A DNA stretch of 64,000 nucleotides. It comes from Heliocidaris erythrogramma. Its lineage: Eukaryota; Echinodermata; Echinoidea; Camarodonta; Echinometridae. The notes beneath the pieces are model-generated. The model was not told where the DNA came from and searched no databases. It was given only the letters and a program-made list of their open reading frames with translations. Made by a program: the position numbers and the translations under genes. Positions within the stretch are counted from its first letter, which is position 1. The number at the start of each line of letters is the position of its first letter. Shown here one piece after another: positions 21,101 to 62,120 of this stretch. Location of the stretch: NCBI GenBank assembly GCA_025617745.1, contig CM046871.1:32557579-32621578 (forward strand). The letters are read 5' to 3'.

Positions 21101-24100
21101 TCAAAATATGCTCCGATGACCGTTTACCCATTTCATTTCAACTTCTCCATTAGGTAATCTTCTGTACTGGACACTATTTCTTCTTACTTTCATCTTTCTT
21201 TGTATATTGAGAAGGCATAGAAAAGCTAGAGAAAGAAGAACGGTCGAGATGACGATGTAAAATAAATATGTCGGAGAGTTGGCGGTCTTTATCACGTTGA
21301 CGAGTTTACATTCGGGTGTTGTGACGTCACTCTGCTGTGAGGATTCTGTGTGAAGCAAGAGAGAGACGAATAGACAGGGTTGATAGGGAATGGAGGAGAG
21401 AGAGAGAGGGAGGGAGGGAAAGATATACAAGAAAGAGGTAAGCAGGGAGAGAGAGAGAAGGAAAAGGAAATATTAGCCGTTGTTCCTCTGGTTGCTTAAA
21501 ATTACAAGTGTACACATACTTTCTTAGTAGTCGGGTAAAATAAACCAAACCAAACCTAAACAATCAACATCAACATCTTCATCATCAACATTATCACCAT
21601 CTTCATCATCATCAAGGTCATCATCATCATCATCCTGATCATCAACATCATCATCCTCAAAGCCGTCATCATTATCCCCATCATCATCATCATCTTCCTC
21701 CTCAAGGCCATCATCTCATCAACATCATCATCATCATCATTAACATATTCATCATCATCATCAACATCAACATCATTATCATCGTCAAGGCCATCATTAT
21801 CATCATCATTATCATCATTATCATCATCATCATCAATCATCATCGCCATCATCATCAACATTATCATCACCATTATTAGTATTATCATTACCATAATGAC
21901 CATCCTATTCAAAACAATGTATAGATATAGTCGACCCTCGTGCATGAACCACGATCAAAACAGAGTCAATCAATTTCATCACCAATAGTATAATTCTTCC
22001 CCGATATTTGCTTCGACGACATTTGCTACGGACTTTATTTTGTTACTGAATATTTAGGGTTAATCAGGGTTGCAGGTAGGCATAGGTTGGGTGTAAGGGT
22101 TAGGTTTAGTATTTGTCAAGGGTTCAAGTTAAGAATTCTGGTAGTATGTATACCATTGACCACAGAGCATTTGTCGCCAGAGATTAAAGCTTGTAATGTG
22201 TTTATTTTGTGATAACTCTGCCGAGGAAGTGGATAATATGACAAGCCCTTCATTTTCTTGTTGCCAGGATACATTTCATAACGTTTTTAAAACCGTTATG
22301 AAATGTATCAATTAAAATTGATTTGTTAATGCTTACCTTTAACACAGACAGGTATGTTGTCGGGTGGAGGTGGCAAGTCTGTATCCTCGCCGACATGAAA
22401 CACAACTGCCATTCCAAGCTGCATAAAACAAATTACATGTGCCATGCAAGAGTCATATTTTCTATGAAAAAAATATGTAAATGATTGTTCGTCATGACAC
22501 ACCATAATTATGCCGATGCAAAGTTCTACGTTATCACTTTGATGTGGATAGATAGGTTGATTTACGACGGCAAAGACAATAAATGACATTATCTCTTACC
22601 GTCGTTTACAGATTACAATGGCGGATCCAAGGGGATATTGGGCCATGTACCCCGGCTCCCCCCCCCCCCCCCCAAAAAAAAAAAACATATTTGGTCATAC
22701 CGCAACTGCGCAAAAAAAAGAAAATGTGCTCAATATGTTTGTATATAATATAATTATATATATTTCTGCTATATATTTCATCTCTTAACAGTTGTTTCTT
22801 TTATTATTGACTTTTGTGTAATTCTCATTAACCGACGCAGGACAATATATTTCATATATATATATATATATATTGCAAAAATGTCAAAAAGGGAGGACAG
22901 CTCTGGGAACTTTGATTGAGCTACGCACCGTTATTCTCGCAATTTCTTTCACATTTATTTATATATATATAATGCGAAAGGAAATGAGAGAACAATGGTT
23001 GCGTAACTTAAATCAATGTTCCCCAGAGCTGTCCTCCCTTTTTGATTTTTTTTCATTTTTTCAAAGGCTGAAAAAATGTCTCCGCCCGGAATCGAACCCG
23101 GGTCGTTGGCTTAGAACGCCAATGCCTTAACCACTAGACCACGGAGACGGGTTAGTGGTTGTGGCGACACCAGATTCAATTGACCGACAGATTGACAAAT
23201 CTTCAACCTTATTAATTAATTAATTCCTTTGTCGGGGGCAGGTGAGTTTTGAACAAAGACAAGCCGCGTGCCTCAGCTGGATCCAAGCGAATGCTTTGAG
23301 ATACATGTATACATTAGAATAATCAATAACAATATTGTAAGGAAATAACATATACAACAGCTTTGGCAACTCTCGTGGAAATAAATACAATGCGAAAGGA
23401 AATGAGAGAATAATGGTTGCGAAACTTAAATCAATGTTCCACGAGAGTTGCCAAAGCTGTTGTATATGTTATTTCCTTACAATATTGTTATTAATTATTC
23501 TAATGTATACATGTACCTCAAAGCATTCGCTTGGATCCAGCTGAGGTAACTGAATTTAAATTATTCCATACATGATTATATAAGATTTAAACATATTAGT
23601 GTGATGATGTATATCCAAACAAAGTGAACAAATCATAATTTTACGGAATCTATTATTTAAAAACAAAAAAAAACAAACAACAAGGACCCCTCCCTACCCA
23701 CATATGCACCTACCTACCCATTCCCTCCGAAACTACCACTGCGTAGAAACCTTCCATCCTAAAAAACAGACATTCACTCATGTACACACCCACCCACCCA
23801 TACACCCACACACCCTTACGCACACCCCCACAGACCCACGCACCCCCACTGCTCGCATTCAGAATTAAAGGACTTTGCTGTGAATGGAGAAGAGCCGTCG
23901 CATCTGTCCTGGGATCGTATCTATTTGGAAGATATACCAAGTGTTTGTTGATGATGACGTTTTTTTTTTTTTTGTCTGTTCGGTTTTTTTCTTTGGGGGG
24001 GGGGGGGGGGGGGGGGGGTTTTGGGGGGTGATGAACTTAACATTTTTTTTATGAAGTTGGTGCCTATGTAACACCTTTTTTTAATAAAAGGAAAAACAAA

Positions 24101-24348: not shown

Positions 24349-27300
24349 ACGTTTATCACTTTCTGATTGCGCCACTGTAAAAAAAAAATACTGACTAACC
24401 TCTAGATGTACATCCATATGGCAATGGAATAGCCACCAGCCTGGATTGTCAGCTTTGAAACGTAGTATGGCATAGCGTTGAGCCATCATTAATGTATCTT
24501 TTCGTGGAGGCCGATGAAGGTTGCGCTTTATTTCACCTAAAAAGAGATGATCAACATTAATTTCAATTTCATTAGAGATTGTGTTATACCGCCTTGGTGT
24601 TATTAATTTCATTTTGCATTTTAGTATCCTGCACAATTATGACAAAATAATATATCTGAGCGTTAAAGTCAAACTCCTACTTTGATTTTAGCAGGGCCCT
24701 ATACCGGGCATGATATTCTGAAAATGTAATGCATTTTCAATTGGTAAACATAAATTATATTTTTCAATTAATCAATAAATCTTCCATAATTCGGGAGGCT
24801 CAAGGCACCTATAAATTATTGCCCTGGATGTAGCCATGTTAGGCAAGCTGTCCTTGGGCACTGGCAGCAATTCAAGGAGTTACCGCCTTTTTTATTCCTG
24901 GTAAGAATTTCAATGACTTATCCAACCAGAAAATCATTTACTACACCTGGGTTGACATTGGCATTTGTAGATTACGTGTAGTAGTATAGGAAATAATTTG
25001 AGAAAATATACCTTTCTCGTCCATATCTTTTATGGTCTGTAGCGGTAGTTGCTGGCCGTTGTCATAACTGATGACGTAGAAATGGTTACCATGGAGATGA
25101 ATTGGGTGTGGCTCAAATTCTTTCAAAGACTTTGTCACCAATACAAGCTCCACAACCTGAAAATTATAATTATTACAGATCTGTCATGAAATACATCCTC
25201 CCTATAATAGACGGCAATTTAATTTTTGTACTTAACCAAATTACTTTTGTAAAATCTTATATACTTTTACAAGATTGTACATTCTACAGTTTATATAAGT
25301 ATGATCTACATAATTATTGTATCCAGTGACACAGCGCGGGTCCAGCCTTCGAGGAAGCACTGGTATTATTTGGGGCACCGGACTATAACTTACTGCATGA
25401 AAATTAAAGATGAAAGTTAAAGTGAAAAGATAAGAGAGTTAATAGACGGAGAAGGCGTTCCCAACCTTGACCGGTGTCCAAGCAGATACAAAGAAATAAA
25501 GCGAGAGAGAGGGAGAGAGGGGTGGACGGGAGGAACTGAGAGCTTATAGAGGAAGAGAGACGGTAAACAGAAAGAAAGGAGAAATCGAGAGAAAAGAGAG
25601 AGGAAGACAGAGTGTATCTTATCTACCTGTCCTCTACCTGATTCAGTTTGACCTGGATCGCATGAGTACATTCGCAGTACTCTTCTTTACAGTCTCGCTC
25701 ATATTCCCTCATCATCGTCGATTTCGTGCATAGACTCCCAGCTGGAAGATGACGATGATGGGTGAGCAACGGGGCCGTTGGGAGCACGAAGCTGATGTTG
25801 CTCAGCATGTGAGTCCTCTTCGCTGTGTACATGCGACCTCCTTGCTCTACGGAGTAGTATGTACTGTGATGAAGATGAGGAGAGTTACGATACACGCTGT
25901 CGACTTCGATATAGTGGGTGACGTCGGCCTCAGGACGCACGATGTCCGAATCGACGGGACCTAGCGATGAAAGTGGAACACCCTCTTAACAAAATACCTC
26001 AATCCTGTTGGGTTATTTTATTTTCTTAAAAGAAGTTACAAGTTATCTAAATGCTTTCTTGTATTTAGGCATGTCAGTAAATTACAACAAAATAAACAGA
26101 CAAAACAATCGAAGTAAAGCATATATTTTCACATTATCGGACTATAATGTTAAAAAATTAAAAATAAAAGAAGAAAACACTTAATATTTTATTTAGAAAA
26201 TAATGATAGGGCACCATAATATTTCCTCCCGGATGCATAAGCATATTATGAGAAACATATTTCACTAGGGTGGTGTACACGTCGTCTCTTGCCTAAAAAT
26301 AAACTTTCCAGTTTCTAAATTTCGCGAGCGAGCAAAGTGAGCAAGCCCAATTTTGTCACTTATTAGAGAGAGAATGCAAATTTGTAGTCAAAATTTGAGA
26401 TAAGATATACCCCGCCCCCCCCCCCCCTCCCTCCTGTGTGCAAACAATATTTTTACCAATCTTTTATACCTGCGTCTTTGAGGTCGTGAACCCCAGGTGT
26501 TTCAGGTTTGCTTTCAACTATAGGTAAATTGAGAATAATTCTATCTTGGTCATTAGCATCTGGTGGCTTCATTTGCTGAGGAGCTCCTTCATATCTCAAT
26601 ATCGCAACTTCTTCAATTCCCTCGCATTCTGATCCATCCACTCCGCGCACTCGTATCGCGTAGTTGTCGATCGGTTTGTCGGCAGAGATCACGAAATCAT
26701 ACCGTTCGCCTCCCGATATTACTCCAACGTCTACCGAGATCGGTTCGACATCCGCGCCGTCTGTAGAAATTATCAATAGTTTGTGATTGGAGATCGATAC
26801 TTCCATTGGACAGTTTGTGACTGCTGTGTTGATAGTTCGAAACCGATAGCGCAACCCTGGCTTGACAGTGAATATTGTATCTGGGAGTTGAGCTTCTTTG
26901 CCATTCCTTTGGAAGATCTGCCAAGAAGAAAAAAATGATGAAGTTACGATATTTGAAATGCCAACATGAATGAAAATAAGTAGTTACACAAATCTGTGGA
27001 TGGTGGTGTAACCGAATGCTCAAGTTTAGACATTTTCAGATAGACACCTCTGTAAGCAGTGTTGAATTTGGTATTGTTATTTTAACATTTTTATTTATAT
27101 GGAGGGAGAATTATAATGAGATGAACATTGCCTCGACCTACATCAGTCACCTTTCTCTTTGTGCCACGTCCGTTAATAAGAATGGCATCAGGACCTCCTG
27201 GTCCGTCGGCGTGTAGATCCTTCATCATATGCTGCATTGAAAGAGTATCAGTCCAATCCGACATCATTATTACATGATCGACGTCATCGACGTCGTAGAG

Positions 27301-30158
27301 ACTAGCATGAACAATGTCATCCTTTCCTTGTCGTACGACCACGGGCCCGAACAACCCATCGGCCCGCTGCAGCCCCGAATGTGAGTGCCACCATTGTGTC
27401 CCCGGTGTGTCGGCGACGAAATCGTAAGTGAAGGCTTGAGGTCGAGGAATGGGGCACTGCGTGATCATTGATGTCCCGTCCATGTGGGGTGAGGTACGTT
27501 GATGTTGACCATGCCAGTGAATGGTCAAGCCTTCCGAGTTGTCCAGGGCATTGCGGACGGTAACACGAACTCGATCACCCTGGCACACCTGTAAAGCGAT
27601 CGACAGAAGTGTATGTTAATGTAGGGACGGCCTCCCAGGGAAAAGGGGGCGGACGTTCATTTTTCGGGGGAAATCGATCTTCCCCCCTCCCCCCCCCCCC
27701 TCCCCATCACGGAAAATTTATTTTAACTGAAATGCACACTAAACTGCTAAAGAAAAAATAGTACAGAATGAGTTGTGGCTACATAATATAACACCGTTTT
27801 GGCTCTAAAATGATAAATGGTGCAACATTTCAGTATTCCAATCGCTACACTCCCTCGCATAACAATAAAATAGTGCCCCCGTGCCCCAGCCCCTTTCCTT
27901 ATCTACGCCACTATTGAAAGGAATTCCCTGAAGATTTTAAGCGCCACGATTCAGCCAGTGTTTCCCTGCTATGTAGACTACTTGGAAATTTGGCCATCTG
28001 TAATAATTATTTTTTTAAATATAATGTCCGAAATAAAAATTTGTAATAATTTCCAAACCATATACCTGAATACTTGGCCCTGGTATCTGTCGATTGATTG
28101 CCAAGACTGGTCGCTGAACCCCGTTTAAAGCTATACAATGAGGCCGCAAACAGTCACTCGTATTGAAAGGACAGTCATAGCAAGCCTTAGACATGGAGTA
28201 ATACCACTCTGCTACAAAGTGGAAGTCACAGGTTCTCGGCTCAGGTAATCTCGTACAATCCCGTGCGCAGGAAGTGGAATCATTGTAAACACCGTTCGAC
28301 ACATTTGGTGTAGTAGAAGTAGTCGCAGCAAAAGGGTAGAAGGTGAATAAATCTGGACGGAGATGAAGAAAAATATGTATACATCTTGGAAAGAATAATA
28401 TACTACTACTGCAACTTTTCAAAGTAATGAATAAGAGAAATAAAAAACATGATTTGTTGGAATATGACTGCTTTTATACAACTGAAAATATACCTTAAAT
28501 CTAACTATTCCTTTTATATGTTTTTTTCTTTTTCACTGAAAGAAAAATGTATTAAAGATAAATAGGTGAAAGAAAGAAAAAAAAAGGAAAAATGAAATAT
28601 GAGAGAGAGAGAAAGAAAGAGAGAGAGAGAGACAGACGTAGTATACCCGAACATCCCAACACAATACCTCACCTCTTCCAGCCCGACCCCCCCCCCCCCC
28701 CTTCCCCAGTGCACCCTAATCCACGAGTGCCCCTCTCCGTACCCCGTGACTTACAATAAGCGTAAACGTGTGTGTCTTTTAGCATTGTACTCCTGAATTG
28801 CCTCGCCCCCCCCCCCCCCCCACACACACACATGGGCAATCCCCATCCGGCATAGCTTAACTACGGCAACAGAAAAAGTGCACATATTTTGGACGTACGC
28901 CTCTACCTTGGCAAACTTGCTAGAAAATGGTTTTCTACTCACTCACTTCTACAATCGGGAGCAAAACTAACGAAAACCCTAAAGAGGCTTCAGAAAGAGT
29001 CAAGATATTCAGCAAGGCTACCTAAAGTTGAGAACCTTTGCAAATGCTGTTTTATACACTTTATCTTATATTGGGGGCGCAATGTTTAGCGAGCAAAGCA
29101 ATTACATCTTTATATTTTCAAATTTTGAACCCTTAAGCTATTTATAAGAACTATATAGGCCTACTGGGGCGCTAAATTACGAGATCCAGAAAGAAAATAA
29201 TTATGCGAGGGAGCAAAGCGACCGAGCTTTGGAAAATTTTCGCATTTCAAACCTTACAAAACTAGATTTCTAGTGCATTTACAATGCGGATTTGGGGACG
29301 CATACCGTAAGGATTAAGAGATTTTTCATTTCCCCCTTCTTACTTCCTCTCCTTTGCGTTTTTGCGCCCCTCCAAGTGAATCCTGCATGGGGCACGCGCC
29401 CCCTGCTCCCTAGATACGCTAAGGGACAGACCGGGGGAGGGTGTGGGAAGGGGGTTATCCCCCTCCCACACCAGGGACTTTTTCAAAAATCTGTCTAAAA
29501 ACTTGCATTTCAAAGCATCCCAAAATGTTTTTTAATGAAAAGAAGGAATGCACGGATCTACGCCAATGGACGGAACCCCTCAATTGAGAATAACAATGCG
29601 AGCGAACGAATTTTCCTCGATATTTTCTCATTGAAATTATGGAATTTCTTATTTCCTTACTTCTAATCATTAAAGAATGTGATGATATTTCAAGATCAAA
29701 CATAATGAGTTTGGATAATCATTAGTTTTAAGTTAATGTATCATAATTCTTATTTATTTTATCCAAAAATATTGGGGTGATAACATAGGCCATCCCCCAC
29801 CTCAAATTTTTTTGGGATATATACCCCCATCCCCCAGAATCGACACCCATGGTATATATTTATTTTTGCATTACGCAGAGCCCTGTGGAAGACCAGTGCC
29901 GTTTTTATCATTTTAATGTATCTTCTGTTTCATTTTATTGTATACGAATTCTGTACTTTTGTATAATCATTGTAACTGAACAGGCTACTCTGGATAAAGA
30001 ATTGATATAAATAAATAAATAATGCTGTCTTAGCAGTCAGGTTAAATAAACCATCAAACCTTTTCAATTTAAAATATTCACTTACACAAAGCTTGTATGA
30101 GGATGAAAGCGACACCGAACGATGCCATTGATACCATGATGATCAACCGATAGTTCAT
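21101..30158 (-). CDS. Laccase-like multicopper oxidase, membrane-anchored (nine exons)
   Basis: Exons (transcript order): 30158-30086, 28352-28066, 27588-27151, 26917-26470, 25960-25638, 25156-25012, 24536-24400, 22418-22337, 21345-21101. All are GT-AG and in phase, encoding 725 residues. A signal peptide (1-24) precedes a Cys-rich segment (SKACYDCPFNTSDC, RPHC) typical of animal laccases. Cupredoxin domain 1 has HWHG (144-147) and HSH (188-190); domain 2 is exon 4; domain 3 has HPIHLHG (540-546) and HCHMDVHLELGM (609-620). All ten copper-binding His plus Cys610 and axial Met620 are present, so catalysis is expected: one-electron oxidation of phenols, amines or metal ions with four-electron reduction of oxygen to water. 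A helix at about 671-693 and a basic tail make it a type I membrane protein. The real substrate cannot be read from sequence. A tRNA-Arg and two fold-backs sit in intron 7. Confidence 0.93.
21562..21895. repeat. (ATC)n microsatellite
   Basis: About 330 bp of interrupted ATC/ATT trinucleotides, in intron 8 of the oxidase gene. Both strands give long acidic or Met-rich open frames that are artefacts of the repeat. Confidence 0.95.
22268..22309. repeat. 16-bp perfect hairpin
   Basis: GATACATTTCATAACG is exactly inverted at 22294-22309 with a TTTTTAAAAC loop. It lies 28 bp past the oxidase exon 8 donor (minus strand), close enough to affect splicing if transcribed. Confidence 0.6.
22886..23047. 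repeat. Fold-back A (imperfect palindrome)
   Basis: The outer 22 bp (AAAAAGGGAGGACAGCTCT...) are identical in both arms. The inner arms, around an AT-rich centre near 22960, pair with many mismatches. The right inner arm (22971-23022) is the same 52-bp sequence as the loop of fold-back B, with two differences. It adjoins the tRNA-Arg gene and lies in intron 7 of the oxidase gene. Confidence 0.8.
23077..23148 (-). tRNA. tRNA-Arg (anticodon TCT)
   Basis: Full cloverleaf of 72 nt: 7-bp acceptor stem GTCTCCG/CGGAGAC without mismatch, D arm GTCT/AGGC, anticodon stem TTGGC/GCCAA around the loop GTTCTAA (anticodon TCT), 4-nt variable loop, and T arm CCGGG/CCGGG with loop TTCGATT. A box TGGTCTAGTGG and B box GGTTCGATTCC fit the consensus. 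The discriminator A is followed immediately by a T6 run, a polymerase III terminator. No intron and no encoded CCA. It lies within intron 7 of the oxidase gene on the same strand, between fold-backs A and B. It looks functional. Confidence 0.92.
23271..23546. repeat. Fold-back B (110-bp arms)
   Basis: 23271-23380 and 23437-23546 are inverted copies with about two mismatches, starting at CCTCAGCTGGATCCAAGCGA. The loop (about 23389-23438) holds the 52-bp core also found in fold-back A. Arms of A and B are unrelated. Near-identity of the arms suggests recent formation. Confidence 0.88.
23995..24018. repeat. G homopolymer
   Basis: A run of 24 G. Comparable C or G runs occur at about 2154, 4150, 18573, 22656, 24317, 26405, 28688, 28806, 30516, 31465, 31752, 32761, 41384 and 57891. 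Several stand at the ends of repeat elements. Confidence 0.8.
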
Positions 30159-44489: not shown

Positions 44490-45791
44490 CCCTTCCGTGC
44501 CATAAGTAGTGCAACATAGTGAAATTCGTTAAATTTTGTGTGAATGACTTTTCTTTGTTGTAGCGGTGTTTTGTTCTAAATCATTGAATAGCGACCGTCA
44601 TTTCGGTTTAAAAGGAATGTACGCCTTGTTCACTTTCTCATTCAATGCTACCGAGTCCTTCATGCACACACCATGGTTAAGACAGCCGAGTTATCTAACG
44701 AGCAATGCCGACAAATCGTCGCATTGAGACAGGAGGGGGTTTCGGTAGCTCAGATTTCTAAACGATTTCGGGTATGCTGTCAAACGGTGTACCGAGTGTG
44801 TAAACGCCATGAGGATACAGAAAATTCCGACAAGCGACCAGAAAGACCACGCCTCGGGATGATCGGTACAGTTGGTAGCAGAATCTCAAAGAGAATGACA
44901 CAAAGACGCCTGTACTCTTACAATCATCATGCCCGCATTTCCAGGAGAAAGATTCTAATATCTCCTGTCAATCGTCTGAGACGCATCAGGTGGGCCACCA
45001 GAGTGAGAGTGAGGGATTGGACATTGGAGAACAACTGGAGTCATTTCGTGGTTTCCGACGAGAGTAGGTTTTGCCCATCTTTGAACGACTGAAGAGTAAG
45101 AGTCTGGCATGAACCGAACACCTCGTATGACCCACGGAACCTTACCTACACTCAAAGGAATTCCATTTTAGTCATGGACTGGGGGTGTGTCGGCATCTTT
45201 GGAGTAGGTGATCTTGTTGTCGTAGACGGGAACATGGATAACGCCAAATATCAGGAGATTCTGGACTCTCACTTGTTTCCATCCATTGGTAACATCTTTG
45301 GCTACGAGCAACATCCGTTCATTTTCCAGGATGACAACGCACCGGCACACAGGGCTGCCCAGATGAACCAATGGTATGGCGAAAATGGCGTCAACAGAGT
45401 GCAGTGGCCGGCGCAATCACCAGATGCTAACCCGATAGAGAACCTGTGGGATGACATCAAGAGAGCCCTCACCAATGACTGGCCAACCACCAGGGAGGGT
45501 TTGATCCGCTCCATCTTCAGGGCCTGGGGGAGCATCACCCAAGAAATGGACTCTACGCGACTATGCCAAGGAGGAAGTGCGCCATCATTAGAAGGCGCGG
45601 GTATCCAACAAAATACTAGAACCTCATGAACTTTACATGACAAATGACTCTTGACATATCAATAAAATGTGGATTTGGCGCTATATAAGTTACATTATTA
45701 TTATTATTACTACAAAGTCATTAAAACAGCACTCATTTTGCCTCTTGTGCAATGCATGTATGTATGTTGCAATACTTTTGGAACGGGAGGG
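44490..45791 (+). mobile_element. Tc1-type transposon, complete with ends
   Basis: Inverted ends CCCTTCCGTGCCATAAGTAG and (inverse) CCCTCCCGTTCCAAAAGTAT, both continuing into TGCAACATA. TA stands directly outside each (44488-44489, 45792-45793), the mariner/Tc1 target duplication. Length 1302 bp, normal for the family. A SINE-like GCGCTATATAA plus (ATT)n lies near its right end (45681-45712). Confidence 0.85.
44673..45619 (+). pseudogene. Tc1 (DD34E) transposase, disrupted
   Basis: An N-terminal paired-type helix-turn-helix domain (ELSNEQCRQIVALRQEGVS) is followed by the catalytic domain: first Asp in VVSDESRF, second in FQDDNAPAH, and Glu in DANPIENLW with 34 residues between the last two. 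One in-frame TGA at 45090 interrupts an otherwise open frame. A single frameshift near 45570-45585 moves the usual C-terminal RRRGYPTKY ending to another frame, with its stop at 45617-45619. The region after the HTH also looks shortened. Few lesions, so inactivation was recent. Confidence 0.88.
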
Positions 45792-49859: not shown

Positions 49860-52800
49860 CTAAGCAATTATCGCCAGAGCAAATGTCAGGTCACTGCTAG
49901 TACTCACCCTCTTCCTGACGGTATTCTCCTGCCCCCTGCTAGTACCCTCTGATGGGTATCTTCTTCTAGGGCTTACAAGGGGCTCTGCAGCCTGGTGACT
50001 GTTGTTGTAAATAAAGATGGCGAGGAACACTGTGGGCATCTGTAAGAAGAAGTCCAGAGTTGGCTGGAATCCTGTCAGCCATATTGAGAGACTGATGATG
50101 AGGACAGTGGCGACCTGTGCACTGTGAACGTGGAACATGTTGTCTCTGAACTTCAACATAAGGGATATCGTGAGTCCCAGGCTGGCGGTGGCAAATATGA
50201 GCATCGTTGAGTACCAGGTGTACCCGCTAAACATCCCGCAGTAGATAACGCGGTTACGGAAGTTCGGAATGACCAAGAGAGTGAGGGTGTTGAAGATGAC
50301 GCCAAAGGTATAAAGGCGCGTGTTCTGGACGATGTACATGTAGATACTCTGCTCACTGTGACTGCCTTCCTTGAAGATCTTCTCATTGTAGATGTTTGCA
50401 AGAGATGACAAGAAGCATTGCAACAGGATCAAGACATGCCCGAAGCTGACTGTGAAACTGTACTTGCTGACTTCTGAGACTGACGGTTCGGAGGTGTGGC
50501 GTAGTTTCCGATGGCAGAGATCCGATGGCACGGCATGTCGCTTTTGGAGTACTTCCACCTCATAGAGGGTGGCATTGTCAATGGATTCTAGCGTGGCGGA
50601 TGAATGATGGTGGCCTTTGAGTGTGCTTCTGTGATCTTGGTTGGATAACGACACAATAGCCAGGAAGAGAATCAGAAGGGAAGCCCACTGCACCTTGCTA
50701 AATTTTCGCCTGAAGAAAGAAATTCAAAGTAAAGTAAAACAAAACTTTTATACAGGGTAGAAAGCTCTTCTATAACATTCACTTTCACTCACTGATAAGG
50801 ATAGATGCTGAAAAGGAATTCTACAGATAACATTTCATTATTTGGCTTGAGAGAGAGGTTGAGAAATGGATTGAAATGAAAGTGGAGTTACGTTACATGT
50901 ACTTTCACCATAACCTCCAACACGTATAGCCCTCACTGTGACCATAATCATATTCTGCTCAGAGCAAGTAAGGTGTAAACCTTTTAGTCACTAAACCGCC
51001 CGGGACCGCCCTTTTTATTACTCACTGAACAACCGCCCGGGACCTGTGTAATACTACATCAAAATGTATTGTAGGGGATATTGGGTGCTGAAGCTTTGTG
51101 TGTGCTATCTTTACACATAAGCCATTTAGAATCCACATTGAAGCGATGCGTTACTGTGGAAAAATTTTGCGTACAGCACAGAGTCTATGCCGTAAGATGG
51201 TCTAGTGAGTAAATGACTACAATATGAATCATCCTCAAAAACATTTACAGAGCTAACACACTTCTGTCTTTAGGCAGACTATTTACTCCCCATAAAGCTG
51301 ACATTAAGGAGTTTTCGGATATGTCGACTTAGATCGTCCCAGTGACAAATGGACTGCTTTGTGTTGACTGCATACAAAGTAGGTGAAGCATGAAGCTAAC
51401 AATGGGTGAAGCAAGGTTCACGTTTTAGAGAAGACAGCAAAACCATGTTTGACACGTTCTCGATCTGACTAGTGGACGAGGGAGAAGCCAGTGGTCGGGT
51501 GAGCCGTTCATGCACAAAGCGCGGTATGCAGCTGACACAAAACAGTCCATTGTAGCTGGGAAAATCTCAGACGGTGTTCAAGTCCACACATTCGAAAGCT
51601 CTCTATTGTGTAAACCTAGTGAGCAGGAACAAATTTCATGACCAGAGTGTGTTTTAGGTAACAAATCCCGCCCAAGAATAAAAGTTTTGGATTACATAAT
51701 GGGCGAGTACCAGGTATTTGGTCATTTCGATGTCCGATATGCTAGTATTATGAACGTATATATACAGACATTAAAATATTTCATAGAGATACCAGCTCCG
51801 GTAAAGCTTTCTTCTTATTACAATGATCAGAAATATTAAAATGCTTTTAAACTGGCAAAACTTGAACAGCGCCACCTTACAATAACTGCTAAATTGAGAT
51901 TATAATTTGAAAATTAATTGCATTTTATTTTGAATTTCAACGAACAGCTGCTTGGAAAATAGGCACATTTTATATTTCAAACTATTATTTTTGACGTTGC
52001 ACATGTGGAAAATTGCTTACAGATACAGTCTAAGCTTCTACAAACTAGAATGGGGCATGATGAGAAAATTAGAGGTACATGTACACTAGACAAATCCTGT
52101 TGATAGATGGCGCCATTAGGAGCTTCAATTTACTGTCACTTTAATGTATGGGACAATATAGCTTGGACTCGCCCTAATACAATTGGACTTCCTGTAGGAA
52201 TATATTTTTATTCCTGAAACAGTATCAAAATTCTGAGAAGTTCTTTCTAACGGGAGATATCTCATGCCTACTTTACCATTAAAATGACGAATAAAAACTA
52301 CATATTTTATTTCTGAAGGAACTTACAGTGTACCGGTACATTTTTAGATTGCATTTGTTTCATCACATTCTCCTTGTGAATTATCTTTACCAGTCTTAAA
52401 AATGAGAAGCTATAAAGATACATGTACTTATCACTTACTTCAAAATGAGTCTGAAAAGTAATGATGTTGAGATAATGGTAAAGTTGCCCAGCAACACAGC
52501 TACAGCCTGTGATGAAAAAAAATATAAAAATATACAACACATACTGTATTTTTAACAAATACAGTGAAACCCGTCTATAAAGACCACTGAAGGGAGACAA
52601 GAAAGGTGGTCTTTATGAGCAGGTGGTCTTTATGGAAAGGTTTCCTTTAATAATGCGCATTTCAATGAGAAACATTGTTCAAGGGAAACGAAAATTGTGG
52701 TCTTTATAGACAGGTGGTCTTTCTATACAGGTAGTCGCTAAAGCAGTTTGGACTGTACTCTTGGTCTGCATGTACATTACATCTGCTAATTCCATTATTC

Positions 52801-57837: not shown

Positions 57838-58730
57838 ATTGCAGATATGGCATGACAATGGATACACACAAACACTGGTGAGTTCTCCCCGGGGGGGGGG
57901 GGGGGGGCATGTGTGACATATATATGTCACACATGTATGTGCCGCTGTGACGTCCCCCATTTTCAACCTTCTTGGGTCGCTCCCATGATATGCGATTTTC
58001 AGATTTTCACTAAACGCATTGGCTTCCGACTCGCTCCCTAGAATATGAGAAAACAATGCGCACAGCCCATTGTCCGGGAACGGTCGCTCCCTAGCCTCCC
58101 AGGCCAGCGCAGCGGGGAGCTGGCGGCCTAGTGCCCCCTAACTGAACGCGGTATTACTAGTGCTAGCGGCGACTCAGCGAGATCAATCTGCATGCGACAT
58201 CGAGTCAGTGCAGTGGCGCGGCATGTACAGCATTAAAAACAGCGCTGCGACCCCTGACACGGCTCATGCACCGTATGTGTACCAGAGTAGTGAGATCGCG
58301 AGCAGCTAAAATTAGATCTGCCCATGAGCCCTTTCGCTCCTTAGACCCTCAAAAATGAGCTTCCTCAATTAACCATTTAGCTCCTTAGCCCCGTTTTGAG
58401 ATTGGCAGCGGCACACCCACATCCAAAAACAGGTTGAGTGCCCCCCCTCCCCCCCTGGGGAGTTCTCAGAAATTTCTTATGATCTTTTTTGGTTAAAATA
58501 TGTACGATCTAAAAGACATTCTAATTCTAAACATTTTCCTACGAGGAAACGCTGTGGTGAAGGAGCCGTCGGTCGCGGGAATTATCAGAAAAGTGTTATT
58601 TCAGGGCATTTTCCAGTCCTGCTAACCCGTGCGCAATTAATTAGATTGCTGGGTAAGAACGCCTGGCTTCGTGATGTAGAAGGCATATAGCCAATTTTTT
58701 TTTTTACATTCACGAAGCCAATCCTGGCTA
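57838..58730. mobile_element. TAGCCAGGATT family, half copy (element B)
   Basis: Corresponds to the right arm of the palindromic elements: GCAGATATGGCATGACAATG near the palindrome centre, GGAAACGCTGTGG, CAGGGCATTTTCCAGTCCTG, CTGGCTTCGTGATGTAGAAG, ending GAAGCCAATCCTGGCTA. The left arm is absent. It is interrupted by the insertion at 57888-58459. Confidence 0.75.
57888..58459. mobile_element. GC-rich-ended transposon insertion with 8-bp duplication
   Basis: GAGTTCTC stands exactly on both sides (57880-57887, 58460-58467), and removal of the insert restores the family sequence. Ends are CCCGGGGGGG and the inverse of CCCAGGGGGG. An 8-bp duplication points to hAT or P-like transposition. The 572-bp body has no recognisable transposase but repeats a CGCTCCCTAG motif. 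Confidence 0.8.
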
Positions 58731-59833
58731 GGCGAGATGAGTTAGCCCTCGGACATTTAACCCGAGGTATGTGGGTTCGACTCTCAGTTTGGACATTACA
58801 AAAATAACGTTTTGTATTCTTATTATTACTAAAAGTAGGATGAAACTTTGAAACCCCATCCAACTCCAACTCCAAGCATTGTAGGGCTATTTCAAAGTTG
58901 CGCATGCGTCAAGGACGATAGTGACAAATGGGAAAAAAAAATTCGCGTCCCGGGGCTAGTCTATGACCGCGTTTACACAGAGTGAACTCGAGTTCAAATT
59001 CCACAGCGAATTCAATTGCGACCTTGGATCAGCATAAATTATTTTTCGGTGGGCTGTTTACACCAAGCGTTGGACGAACTCGAATTCAGAAGGAAAGTGA
59101 ATTCGACTTGATTACGCCCTCGCTTGGTGGAATATCGTGACAATCAACTTCCGGGTTGAATTTGTGAAAACCCCGCGAGTAAGTTCAAAATGGCGGTAGC
59201 GAGTATTGTAAGCGCAGCCATTTTGATCTGGTTTTGTATGATTTTACGTCGGAATTACAAAATTATGAACGAATATTTGCAGATATGATGAGCGTGTGGT
59301 TAGCCAGGATTAGCTTCGTGAATGTAGAAAAAAAAAAATGGCTAGGCCTATACGCCTTCTACACACGAAGCTAGGCGTTATTACCCAGCAATCAGATTCC
59401 GCACGGGGTAGTACGACATGAAAAATGCCCTGAAATCACACTTTTCTGATAATTTCCGCGCCCCACAGGCCCTTCCCCACAGCGTTTCCTCCTAGGGAAA
59501 CGATTGCAATGACAATTTTGTTTTGATTGACACTAATTTCAGTAAAAAATCCCCCAAAGAGCATAAGAAATTTCAGAGAACTCACCAGCGTTTGTGTATC
59601 CATGCCTCCGGGGTCATGCAGATCCAAAATGGCGGCACTGTCGATCATCGAAACTATGAGGCGCTGTTTGTAGATTTATTATTTAGCTCAATTATTTACA
59701 TATAATTCTCTATTTAGCTCTTTTCTACAATTATTCTAATGACATAAAGGATACAATTATTTATATTACATATCATAATTGATAGGATTGAAGTAAATTG
59801 AATATATCATAAAGAAATGTGAGAAAATTACAA

Positions 59834-59905
59834 TGCCCCGACCGGGATTCGAACCCGGGACCCTGGATTACATGACCAGTGCTCTACCAACTGAGCTATC
59901 CGGGC
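59834..59905 (-). tRNA. tRNA-Thr(TGT)-like sequence, probably pseudogene
   Basis: A 72-nt cloverleaf can be drawn: acceptor GCCCGGA/TCGGGGC with one G-G mismatch, D arm GCTC/GAGC, anticodon stem CTGGT/TCCAG with a T-T mismatch, and T arm CCGGG/CCCGG with TTCGAAT. A box TAGCTCAGTTGG and B box GGTTCGAATCC are intact. The anticodon loop CATGTAA would give TGT, but position 33 is A instead of the invariant T. These faults argue for a decayed tRNA-Thr. Confidence 0.65.
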
Positions 59906-59915
59906 TCCCGTCGAA

Positions 59916-59969
59916 GTAGAGCACTGGTCATGTAATCCAGGGTCCCGGGTTCGAATCCCGGTCGGGGCA
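59916..59969 (+). pseudogene. Partial inverted copy of the tRNA-like sequence
   Basis: Identical to the last 54 nt of the tRNA-like gene, on the opposite strand, and lacking the first 18 nt. It carries the same anticodon-loop change, so the change predates the inversion. The 10-bp spacer between the copies is the centre of palindrome C. Confidence 0.85.
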
Positions 59970-60895
59970 TTGTAATTTTCTCACATTTCTTTATGATATA
60001 TTCAATTATTTATATATAATGAATTTTATAATTTACATTTTTTATAAATAATGTTTTCACAAATTCATTATATGGAAATTGCAAAATTCATTATTTATGA
60101 AAAATTGTATCCTTTATGTCATTTTATATTATAATTATTGTAGAAAAGAGCTAAATAGAGAATTATATGTAAATAATTGAGCTAAATAATAAATCTACAA
60201 ACAGCGCCTCATAGTTTCGATGATCGACAGTGCCGCCATTTTGGATCTGCATGACCCCGGAGGCATGGATACACAAACGCTGGCGAGTTCTCTGAAATTT
60301 CTTATGCTCTTTGGGGGATTTTTTACTGAAATTAGAGTCAATCAAAACAAAATTGTCATTGCAATCGTTTCCCTAGGAGGAAACGCTGTGGGGCGCGGAA
60401 ATTATCAGAAAAGTGTGATTTCAGGGCATTTTTCATGTCGTACTACCCCGTGCGGAATCTGATTGCTGGGTAATAACGCCTAGCTTCGTGTGTAGAAGGC
60501 GTATAGCCATTTTTTTTTTTCTACATTCACGAAGCTAATCCTGGCTATGCGTGGTGGATTGAATCAAGCCAGTTCGGTGAATTTATACTGACGCGACGCT
60601 TAGCAATACTGGAAGTGACGTATGACGAGGTCACTGGCTGGATATTTGCTAGTCGACTTTCAATTACGTGTCCGTTCACACTGAAAGTGCAAATAGCGAA
60701 TTTAAATTCGATAATAGTCGAGTTTGAATTCGATTCGAGTTCTAATTGCGACTACCCTGTTTACACACAAATGAACTCGAGTTCAAATTCGACTAAAGTC
60801 GAGTTCAGTCTCTGTGTAAACGGGGTCTATGCAAAGCTCATCCACACAACACACACGACCATCTGACCATGACGACACACATGCATGATCACGAG

Positions 60896-62120
60896 TAGCC
60901 AGGATTGGCTTCATGAATGTAAAAAAAAAAAAAATTGGCTACCTATACGCCTTCTACATCACGAAGCCAGGCGTTCTTTATACCCAGCAATCTAATTGCG
61001 CACGGGTTAGCAGGACTGGAAAATGCCCTGAAATAACACTTTTCTGATAACTCCCGCAACCGATAGCTCCTTCGCCACAGCGTTTCTAGCTCCTACGAAA
61101 ACGTTTAGAATTAGAATGTCTTTTTGATCGTACGTATTTTTACCAAAAAATCCAAAAAAGATCATAAGAAATTTCCGAGAACTCACCAGTGTTTGTGTGT
61201 ATCCATGCCTCCCCTTGTCATGCAGATATGGCATGACAATGGCATGACATTTTTTTGGATTTTTTGGTAAAATTACGTACGATCAAAAAGACATTCTAAT
61301 TCTAAACGTTTTCCTAGGAGGAAACGCTGTGGCGAAGGAGCTATCGGTCGCGGAAGTTATCAGAAAAGTGTTATTTCAGGGCATTTTCCAGTCCTGCTAT
61401 CCCGTGCGCAATTAGATTGCTGGGTAAGAACGCCTGGCTTCGTGATGTAGAAGGCCGTATCCGGACTCCTACCCCCTGGACAACCACCCCCCGGATAACC
61501 ACCCCTAGGATAACCACCCTCTAGGACAACTACCCCCTAGGACAACTACCCCCTAGGGCAACCACCCTCTAGGACGACTACCCCCCTAGGACAAGTACCC
61601 CCGGATAACTACCCCCCAGACAACTACCCCCTAGGACGGGCTAGGACAACCACCCTCTAGGACAACTACCCCCGGATAACTACCCCCCGGACAACTACCC
61701 CCAGGGACAACTACCCCCCGTCATAGTTGTCCTAGGGGGTGGTTGTCCGGGGGGTAGTTGTCCAGGGGGTAGTTGTCCGGGGGGTAGTTGTCTGGGGGGT
61801 AGTTGTCCGGGGGGTAGTTGTCCAGGGGGTAGTTGTCCGGGGGGCAGTTGTCCTAGAGGGTGGTTGTCCTAGGGGGTAGTTGTCTGGGGGGTAGTTATCC
61901 GGGGGGTACTTGTCCTAGGGGGGTAACAAAGTTAGTCGTCCTACTCCTAGACTGGCTAACGTTAGAGGGTGGTTGCCCTAGGGGGTAGTTGTCCTAGAGG
62001 GTGGTTATCCTAGGGGTGGTTATCCGGGGGTGGTTGTCCAGGGGGTAGGAGTCCTAGAACCGTAGAAGGCGTATAGCCAATTTTTTTTTTTTTTTACATT
62101 CACGAAGCCAATCCTGGCTA
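60896..62120. mobile_element. Palindromic element D with 8-bp duplication
   Basis: ATCACGAG flanks it exactly (60888-60895, 62121-62128). Ends are TAGCCAGGATTGGCTTC and inverse. Without the insertion at 61456-62061 the arms mirror each other around a centre near 61225 (CATGCCTC...GGCATGACAATGGCATGAC). Same family as B and C; the 8-bp duplication suggests a hAT- or P-like cut-and-paste source. Confidence 0.85.
61456..62061. mobile_element. TU-like fold-back element
   Basis: GTAGAAGGC stands on both sides (61447-61455, 62062-62070). The left half is built of short units of the type GGACAACTACCCCCTA, and the right half of their inverse. Outer ends (GGACTCCTACCCCCTGGACA) match inverted for over 60 bp. 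Inverted arrays of short tandem units with an 8-9 bp duplication are the described architecture of fold-back/TU elements; TU elements come from sea urchin. An unmatched piece (about 61908-61965) interrupts the right half. Confidence 0.85.

Follow-up and report, generated by a model that had tools for sequence, protein, structure and literature searches.

In the part of PMC3846280 considered here, Penelope-like elements (PLEs) are reported to occur with direct and with inverted pLTRs, a 31-bp tail being optional at one inverted pLTR; their duplications measure 8–10 bp, their inverted repeats are mostly head-to-head, and self-priming is favoured as the cause. The part of PMC11167929 considered here reports that a PLE protein, once purified, cleaves AT-rich DNA on both strands and extends each of them, that its reverse transcription (RT) starts at two adjacent internal sites whose spacing equals the tail, and that no strand difference in the start site was seen. 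Animal retrozymes are short, tandem, non-autonomous units of ~150–300 bp (PMC7761336, in the portion used), and tRNA SINEs carry their promoter 10–15 nt from the 5′ end of the unit (PMC8969392, likewise in the portion used).

Here we analyse a 1,247-bp palindrome with a tRNA-like centre (element B) that lies in a 64,000-nt stretch of Heliocidaris erythrogramma DNA (hereafter the window) on contig C19. The genome comprises 1.06 Gb in 26 contigs and is marked as eukaryotic by its size, repeats and interrupted exons. We consider it highly probable that three nested events produced it: a palindromic MITE existed, a tRNA retroposon inserted into it via a PLE-like route, and the loaded transposon spread. 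A puzzling palindrome thereby becomes an ordered nesting of two mobile elements, the composite being a retroposon spread by a DNA transposon.

Element B and its transposon family

The features of element B and its immediate neighbours are as follows (strand in brackets where one applies).

58455–58738 (+): element A, consisting of one right arm from a related transposon
59293–59300 (+): left 8-bp target duplication CGTGTGGT, 6/8 identical to the right copy
59301–60547: element B, a non-autonomous TIR transposon of 1,247 bp, long-palindrome MITE, composite copy (from TIR boundaries, arms and a family of 1,260 exact TIR ends)
59301–59766 (+): left arm of the original transposon, through the left 13-bp repeat (from alignment to tRNA-less empty relatives)
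59754–59766 (+): direct repeat CAATTATTTATAT, left copy; two copies in element B and one in the empty element L104, attributed to retroposon insertion
59767–60002: inserted retroposon of 236 bp, a long (tail) arm and a short inverted arm, head to head (98–99% match to the 324-nt unit)
59767–59916 (−): tail arm, unit ~314 through the tRNA to 140
59834–59905 (−): retroposon head resembling tRNA-Thr(TGT), with A33 and positions 31:39 mismatched (ARAGORN, Rfam)
59916–60002 (+): inverted short arm, unit 19 to 106 (111 counting the shared CAATT)
59916–59969 (+): inverted partial tRNA copy of 54 nt, 10 bp from the tRNA
60003–60015 (+): right copy of the direct repeat CAATTATTTATAT, of which the retroposon also contains the first 5 nt
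60003–60547 (−): right arm and AT-rich former centre of the original transposon (from alignment to empty relatives)
60548–60555 (+): right 8-bp target duplication TGCGTGGT
60896–62120: element C, a related tRNA-less transposon with the 8-bp duplication ATCACGAG on both sides

Three pairs of inverted segments in element B are 100% identical: the outer 44 nt (59301–59344/60504–60547), 121 nt of the arms (59348–59468/60386–60506) and an inner 92-nt pair (59796–59887/59916–60007). A further 266 nt of the arms (59475–59740/60128–60393) show 98% identity. TIRs are present at both ends, as in a MITE, and the two flanking duplications, CGTGTGGT and TGCGTGGT, are imperfect copies with two differences, each C/T at a CpG. 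On the minus strand of 59834–59905, ARAGORN and Rfam both call a tRNA-Thr or tRNA (anticodon TGT; 59.1 bits). An initial annotation of this DNA had described the palindrome, its arms, the tRNA-Thr-like centre and the 54-nt inverted copy 10 bp away, all of which proved correct to the base. The anticodon-loop defect that it ascribed to both tRNA copies is also present: each reads TCATGTAATC around the anticodon, with A at position 33 and T:T at 31:39.

The terminal pattern TAGCCAGGATTRGCTTCGTGAATGTA has 1,260 exact matches in the genome as against none for the reversed control, which excludes a chance origin of element B. Pairs of ends on contig C1 are spaced ~0.6, 1.1, 1.25, 2.4, 3.6 and 4.4 kb apart. 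The target duplication is of constant length, being exactly 8 bp at 19 of the 20 C1 loci fetched and 7/8 at the remaining one (two of the 20, L075 and L076, have one duplication and probably common flanks). Its motif is symmetrical and G+C-rich, near SSCRYGSS, among 38 distinct exact cases chosen for exactness. Such an 8-bp duplication would fit the hAT or P type as candidate superfamilies. No ORF of at least 150 aa was found in the 20 C1 loci or in the fetched 2.4–4.4-kb elements (L061–L066); the 4.4-kb elements were therefore rejected as autonomous members, and since L061–L066 lack such a frame the transposase is probably supplied from elsewhere, in trans. The TIR pattern had no match in viral contigs, and in the open-access literature the TIR string matched only items on medical or primer topics, judged by title.

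Some structural variety within the family was also recorded. The 4.4-kb members L061–L064 have near-identical 531-bp arms; L062 has its interior in common with L063, and L061 and L064 match L063 in the arms only. Family members directly abut one another in L061, L079 and L080, in L080 with an identical 8-bp duplication, which suggests that the family inserts next to its own members.

Near element B, the right arm of element C holds a ~600-bp palindromic minisatellite of the CTACCCCCTAGGACAA type (~61461–62057). Element A is seemingly split by a ~560-bp insert at 57888–58454, with GAGTTCTC near both edges, and its end directly adjoins a tRNA-like, B-box-like stretch, GGGTTCGACTCTC, at 58740–58800, for which ARAGORN made no call. 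Elsewhere in the window lie two ORFs with Tc1/mariner-type HTH and DDE_3 domains (44673–45629), coding stretches for a multicopper oxidase (27091–27588) and a nucleotide-sugar transporter (49860–50693), and a tRNA-Arg(TCT) on the minus strand of 23077–23148 that has a T run on its 3′ side and resembles an ordinary gene.

Palindrome, empty site and spread of the loaded transposon

Nine elements of the family, eight of them tRNA-less, were compared with their own reverse complements. Six of the tRNA-less elements match end to end, E67, E68, E69, E77 and E71 at 91–98% and E74 at 79%, and E65 and E63 have near-identical inverted arms of 501 and 531 bp. ARAGORN found no tRNA in any of the 20 C1 loci that supplied these elements, and the tRNA-less size classes of 0.6, 1.0–1.1, 2.4 and 4.4 kb have their outer arms in common. 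Because tRNA-less palindromic members with 8-bp target duplications exist, the arms of the transposon predate the tRNA.

The empty insertion site itself can be found. A pattern across the insertion point has 38 matches, to which two elements contribute two matches each; 12 begin GGATACAATT and are uninterrupted, and 26 begin ATATTCAATT and are occupied. Five further empty-site loci were fetched, one of which (L104) shows both ends and measures 1,021 bp with the duplication GGAGGGGG. Against the loaded form, L104 gives two alignment blocks that abut at the point of insertion, and the joined flanks of element B (400 bp, with the 236-bp insert omitted) match it at 95.6% over 409 columns. The repeat CAATTATTTATAT occurs twice in element B and once in L104; as the insert also contains its first five bases, the duplication made on insertion amounts to 8–13 bp.

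These results bear on the two routes put forward in the initial annotation, namely that a mobile element acquired a tRNA-bearing sequence and then duplicated itself in inverse, or that an inversion turned around within the tRNA. The acquisition is borne out, the 236-bp insert being absent from the empty relatives. Neither an inverse self-duplication after capture nor a turn-around within the tRNA finds support in a family in which six of eight tRNA-less relatives are end-to-end palindromes and L104 has the empty site; the mechanism proposed there was mostly wrong. It had also been suggested that other palindromes of the family be checked for what sits at their centres. From the tRNA-less members sampled, the tRNA is seen to have been inserted later; this comes very near to the chance insertion named there as the contrary outcome, yet the insertion has spread in ~30 copies.

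Thirty sites in the genome match a pattern that spans the tRNA mirror junction, and 29 of these, the window copy included, lie in the transposon, on 12 contigs. Of the 29, 22 fall in loci fetched by arm similarity, five adjoin an arm or occupied-site match, and two (L125 and L126) were fetched and match the composite; the thirtieth, on C20 (L127), lies outside the transposon and matches as tandem copies of the unit. The junction reads CTAC in the window copy and CTGC or CTGT in 28 of the 29 other matches. L003, whose tRNA a further insertion interrupts, is one more composite. Inside its tRNA (2100–2470 of L003) sits a second tRNA-like sequence that begins with AAT repeats and constitutes a third level of nesting.

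Both ends were found in 17 of the 23 composite loci examined, and 14 of the 17 carry an exact 8-bp duplication (a run of C in one case). Thirteen of 14 aligned copies of 1,230–1,300 bp differ by less than 1% from the majority; the other, L023, differs by 5.8% (73 of 1,249 compared positions) and accounts at least partly for the higher mismatch rate of the tRNA among aligned composites. A single capture best accounts for the 29 composites. The set as a whole is likely to be young, which is put no higher because the aligned copies are the best arm matches.

Three other histories of the palindrome can be weighed against this evidence. A replication fork stalled at a tRNA gene, followed by an inverted duplication that made the whole 1.25-kb palindrome, is the model drawn from the initial annotation; the palindrome does have its centre in the tRNA, and replication forks can stall at tRNA genes. 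The tRNA-less relatives are, however, palindromic themselves and carry the empty site once, which refutes the model unless insert and one repeat were lost by exact secondary deletions, and we regard it as extremely improbable; no observation calls for a stalled fork. Equally improbable is a history in which the tRNA came first and precise excision or gene conversion emptied formerly loaded copies: palindrome centres are deletion-prone, but several tRNA-less size classes share their outer arms, and the loaded copies, picked by similarity, are nearly identical (13 of 14 within 1%). Long palindromes are also difficult to assemble, and collapsed or mirrored reads might have created element B. The chance of such an artefact is nonetheless close to negligible, given that the same central junction recurs in this transposon at 28 other sites, that composites have their own exact duplications in the 14 cases above, and that the arms of element B are non-identical.

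The tRNA-headed retroposon and its paired ends

The 5′ half of the tRNA has 2,211 matches in the genome at up to three mismatches, as against none for the control, and these matches together with the ARAGORN and Rfam calls rule out a chance tRNA-like sequence. Of the 82 exact tRNA-head matches listed on C1, 70 are in the stretch up to 67.9 Mb for which TIR ends were also listed; a listed exact TIR end occurs within 2 kb of one of the 70 and within 6 kb of three. The insert of element B is one member of this stand-alone family, which is separate from the transposon. Head-to-tail tandems with a period of ~320–340 nt define a family unit of ~324 nt that comprises the tRNA, its 3′ flank, a tail, a body and a leader. 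A- and B-box-like sequence is present in the tRNA head. Tandem copies and longer ones have the tRNA in the interior of the unit, and many copies hold conserved sequence well upstream of it. Sampled units show 1–2.3% mismatch to one reference unit (tail excluded); the lower mismatch rate of their tRNA is not evidence of selection, since the loci were picked by exact tRNA match.

The altered anticodon region is a trait of the family, as TCATGTAATC is read in 49 of the 60 matches that 38 stand-alone stretches contain and in 54 of 55 in 30 arm-selected loci (with some overlap). A working host tRNA-Thr gene would have U33 and a paired anticodon stem; with A33 and T:T at 31:39 in most sampled copies, this identity was rejected for the head. 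A 27-nt pattern from a host-type tRNA-Thr arm has 71 matches at up to two mismatches, 68 of them clustered on C9, and nearly all of the 68 read TCTTGTAAACC (U33) at the anticodon site. The C9 cluster (G000:C9:52639000-52670147) holds its 68 tRNA-Thr(TGT) arm matches on one strand, often ~350 bp apart; three members read TCATGTAAACC and have A33, like the retroposon.

Several single loci of the family deserve mention. The 324-nt unit at 766–1089 of L090 folds better than its shuffles (z −3.17), and the sequences flanking its tRNA on either side are complementary. L112, L113 and L121 hold short single-arm copies of ~128 nt that start near unit 301–303. In L099, units of 2–2.5 kb are repeated in tandem, and every one combines a piece of the tRNA unit with a minisatellite. 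A C2 array spaced at 2–2.5 kb was considered as a full PLE and rejected: it consists of unit and minisatellite, and its longest frame, of 210 aa, is repetitive.

Copies that lie close together are often head-to-head. Among 100 listed exact heads, neighbours within 1 kb are head-to-head (−,+) in 13 cases, tail-to-tail (+,−) in none and on the same strand in eight. We mapped 38 stretches to the unit, which derive from exact tRNA matches on C1 and C2 and were in many cases chosen for holding pairs; frequencies and ages obtained from loci sampled by exact tRNA match (C1, C2) or by best arm match describe those samples and are not genome estimates. The 38 stretches have 61 outer 3′ ends: 29 at unit 123–160, 23 at 95–122 and nine elsewhere, the limits of the clusters having been set after a first look at the data. 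Both ends fall in the clusters in 16 of 23 head-to-head stretches (the other seven have an end outside), and all 16 insertions combine one short end with one tail end, at sites ~35 nt apart. None of the 16 pairs shares flanks with another; among the 38 stretches, L112 and L113 are one locus copied, and L107 and L108 share a 167-bp flank. Exact target duplications of at least 8 bp were found in 9/16, compared with 2.5% of 240 cross-locus (mismatched-flank) controls, and the target duplications of the retroposon are short, AT-rich and variable in length. The two head-to-head arms often run through the tRNA and overlap.

The insert of element B fits this signature, its arms ending at unit 140 and 106–111. 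The 54-nt mirror copy of the tRNA is thus accounted for by a retroposon family that often inserts as head-to-head inverted copies.

A different driver has been considered for these insertions. The retroposon could be a tRNA SINE moved by a LINE, its head-to-head copies being 5′ inversions by twin priming as in L1. Twin priming also joins inverted pieces, and the tRNA head with its box-like sequences and the short, AT-rich target duplications would suit a SINE. So would the starts of some copies, which fall at unit 285–310 (14–40 nt upstream of the tRNA) in 16 of 61 copies and in 7 of 11 single-arm stretches, as expected of a Pol III transcript; the other 45 copies start elsewhere in the unit. 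Against this stand the two end sites with one of each in all 16 scorable pairs, arms that overlap through the tRNA and are not expected from a single template read once, the head-to-tail tandems, and the conserved sequence well upstream of the tRNA in many copies. On balance we judge a LINE-driven SINE to be unlikely.

The reading that we prefer, three nested events, would proceed as follows. A non-autonomous TIR transposon would have been an end-to-end palindrome of ~1.0–1.1 kb with an AT-rich centre and 8-bp, G+C-rich target duplications. The tRNA-Thr-headed retroposon would then have inserted into the AT-rich centre of one copy, duplicating 8–13 bp, with both target strands extended from the retroposon RNA, most likely by a PLE enzyme. 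Synthesis of one strand would have begun at the tail site, distal on the template, and that of the other ~35 nt upstream, so that the two head-to-head copies differ in their 5′ ends and the second has only 54 nt of the tRNA. A transposase acting in trans would finally have mobilised the loaded transposon to ~30 sites, that in the window included. Of this scheme we observed the palindromes without a tRNA, the empty site, the retroposon family on its own, the two-site ends of the sampled stretches and the composites, and we infer the PLE enzyme, the transposase and the order of strand synthesis.

A wider proposal, which we put forward tentatively and hold to be doubtful, is that the 324-nt unit represents a new class of non-autonomous retroposon in which the tRNA replaces the hammerhead of PLEs and retrozymes. 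RNase P and RNase Z might cut tandem transcripts at the tRNA into unit-length templates, which a PLE protein might copy from two internal starts onto both strands of AT-rich targets.

Comparison with PLEs, retrozymes, SINEs and MITEs

GIY-YIG domains are abundant in this genome (of 1,721 candidates 150 were scored, and 121 of these match), and several lie in open frames of 400–974 aa that are candidate PLEs. No PLE with the tRNA unit in it was found: the eight C1 matches listed are all more than 5 kb away from any listed exact tRNA head of that contig, and the tRNA unit is absent from all three of the fetched 501-bp flanks of GIY-YIG frames, which gave chance-level matches only. Downstream of one of these three frames (L128) a regular expression picked out a hammerhead-core-like string, which Rfam did not report at E ≤ 1.

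A hammerhead was sought in the retroposon as well. An Rfam scan of four unit-bearing loci (E ≤ 5) returned none, a regular expression for the core motif found none in the 324-nt unit, and an identity as hammerhead retrozyme was accordingly rejected. PLEs have an ORF with RT and a GIY-YIG endonuclease, and the unit has no such ORF. We therefore call the unit PLE-like in its mode of insertion, and non-autonomous, rather than a PLE by membership, because 324 nt is too short for RT/GIY-YIG, no hammerhead was found and no unit lies beside the three GIY-YIG frames.

The new part is the tRNA-bearing, apparently ribozyme-less, PLE-like retroposon: a narrow search of the open-access literature found no description of a tRNA-headed retroposon paired with the insertion signature of a PLE. 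Its ~2,200 head matches and the low divergence of its units would allow the two-start-site model of PLE reverse transcription to be tested by mapping ends.

With PLEs, as far as the parts of the two sources considered here describe them, the 324-nt unit shares direct tandems, head-to-head inverted copies, AT-rich targets and short duplications, as well as a tail of 30–40 nt on one inverted copy. It differs in its size of ~324 nt, in being without the PLE protein, in its tRNA-Thr head and in that no hammerhead was detected. The strict occurrence of one end of each kind is not explained by the published assay, which in the part of PMC11167929 considered here shows no strand difference in the start site.

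Animal retrozymes, as the portion of PMC7761336 used here presents them, resemble the unit in being short, tandem and non-autonomous, but they have a hammerhead, and in the unit none was found and a tRNA is present instead. Like tRNA-derived SINEs, the retroposon has a tRNA head, thousands of copies, target duplications and some starts just upstream of the tRNA; unlike them, it has its tRNA internally in tandem and longer copies, and its pattern of ends is PLE-like. The transposon that carries it agrees with MITEs with long inverted repeats in its TIRs, constant 8-bp duplication and high copy number and, in the 20 loci examined, in being without an ORF of at least 150 aa, and differs from them in that one of its subfamilies has a tRNA-bearing retroposon at its centre.
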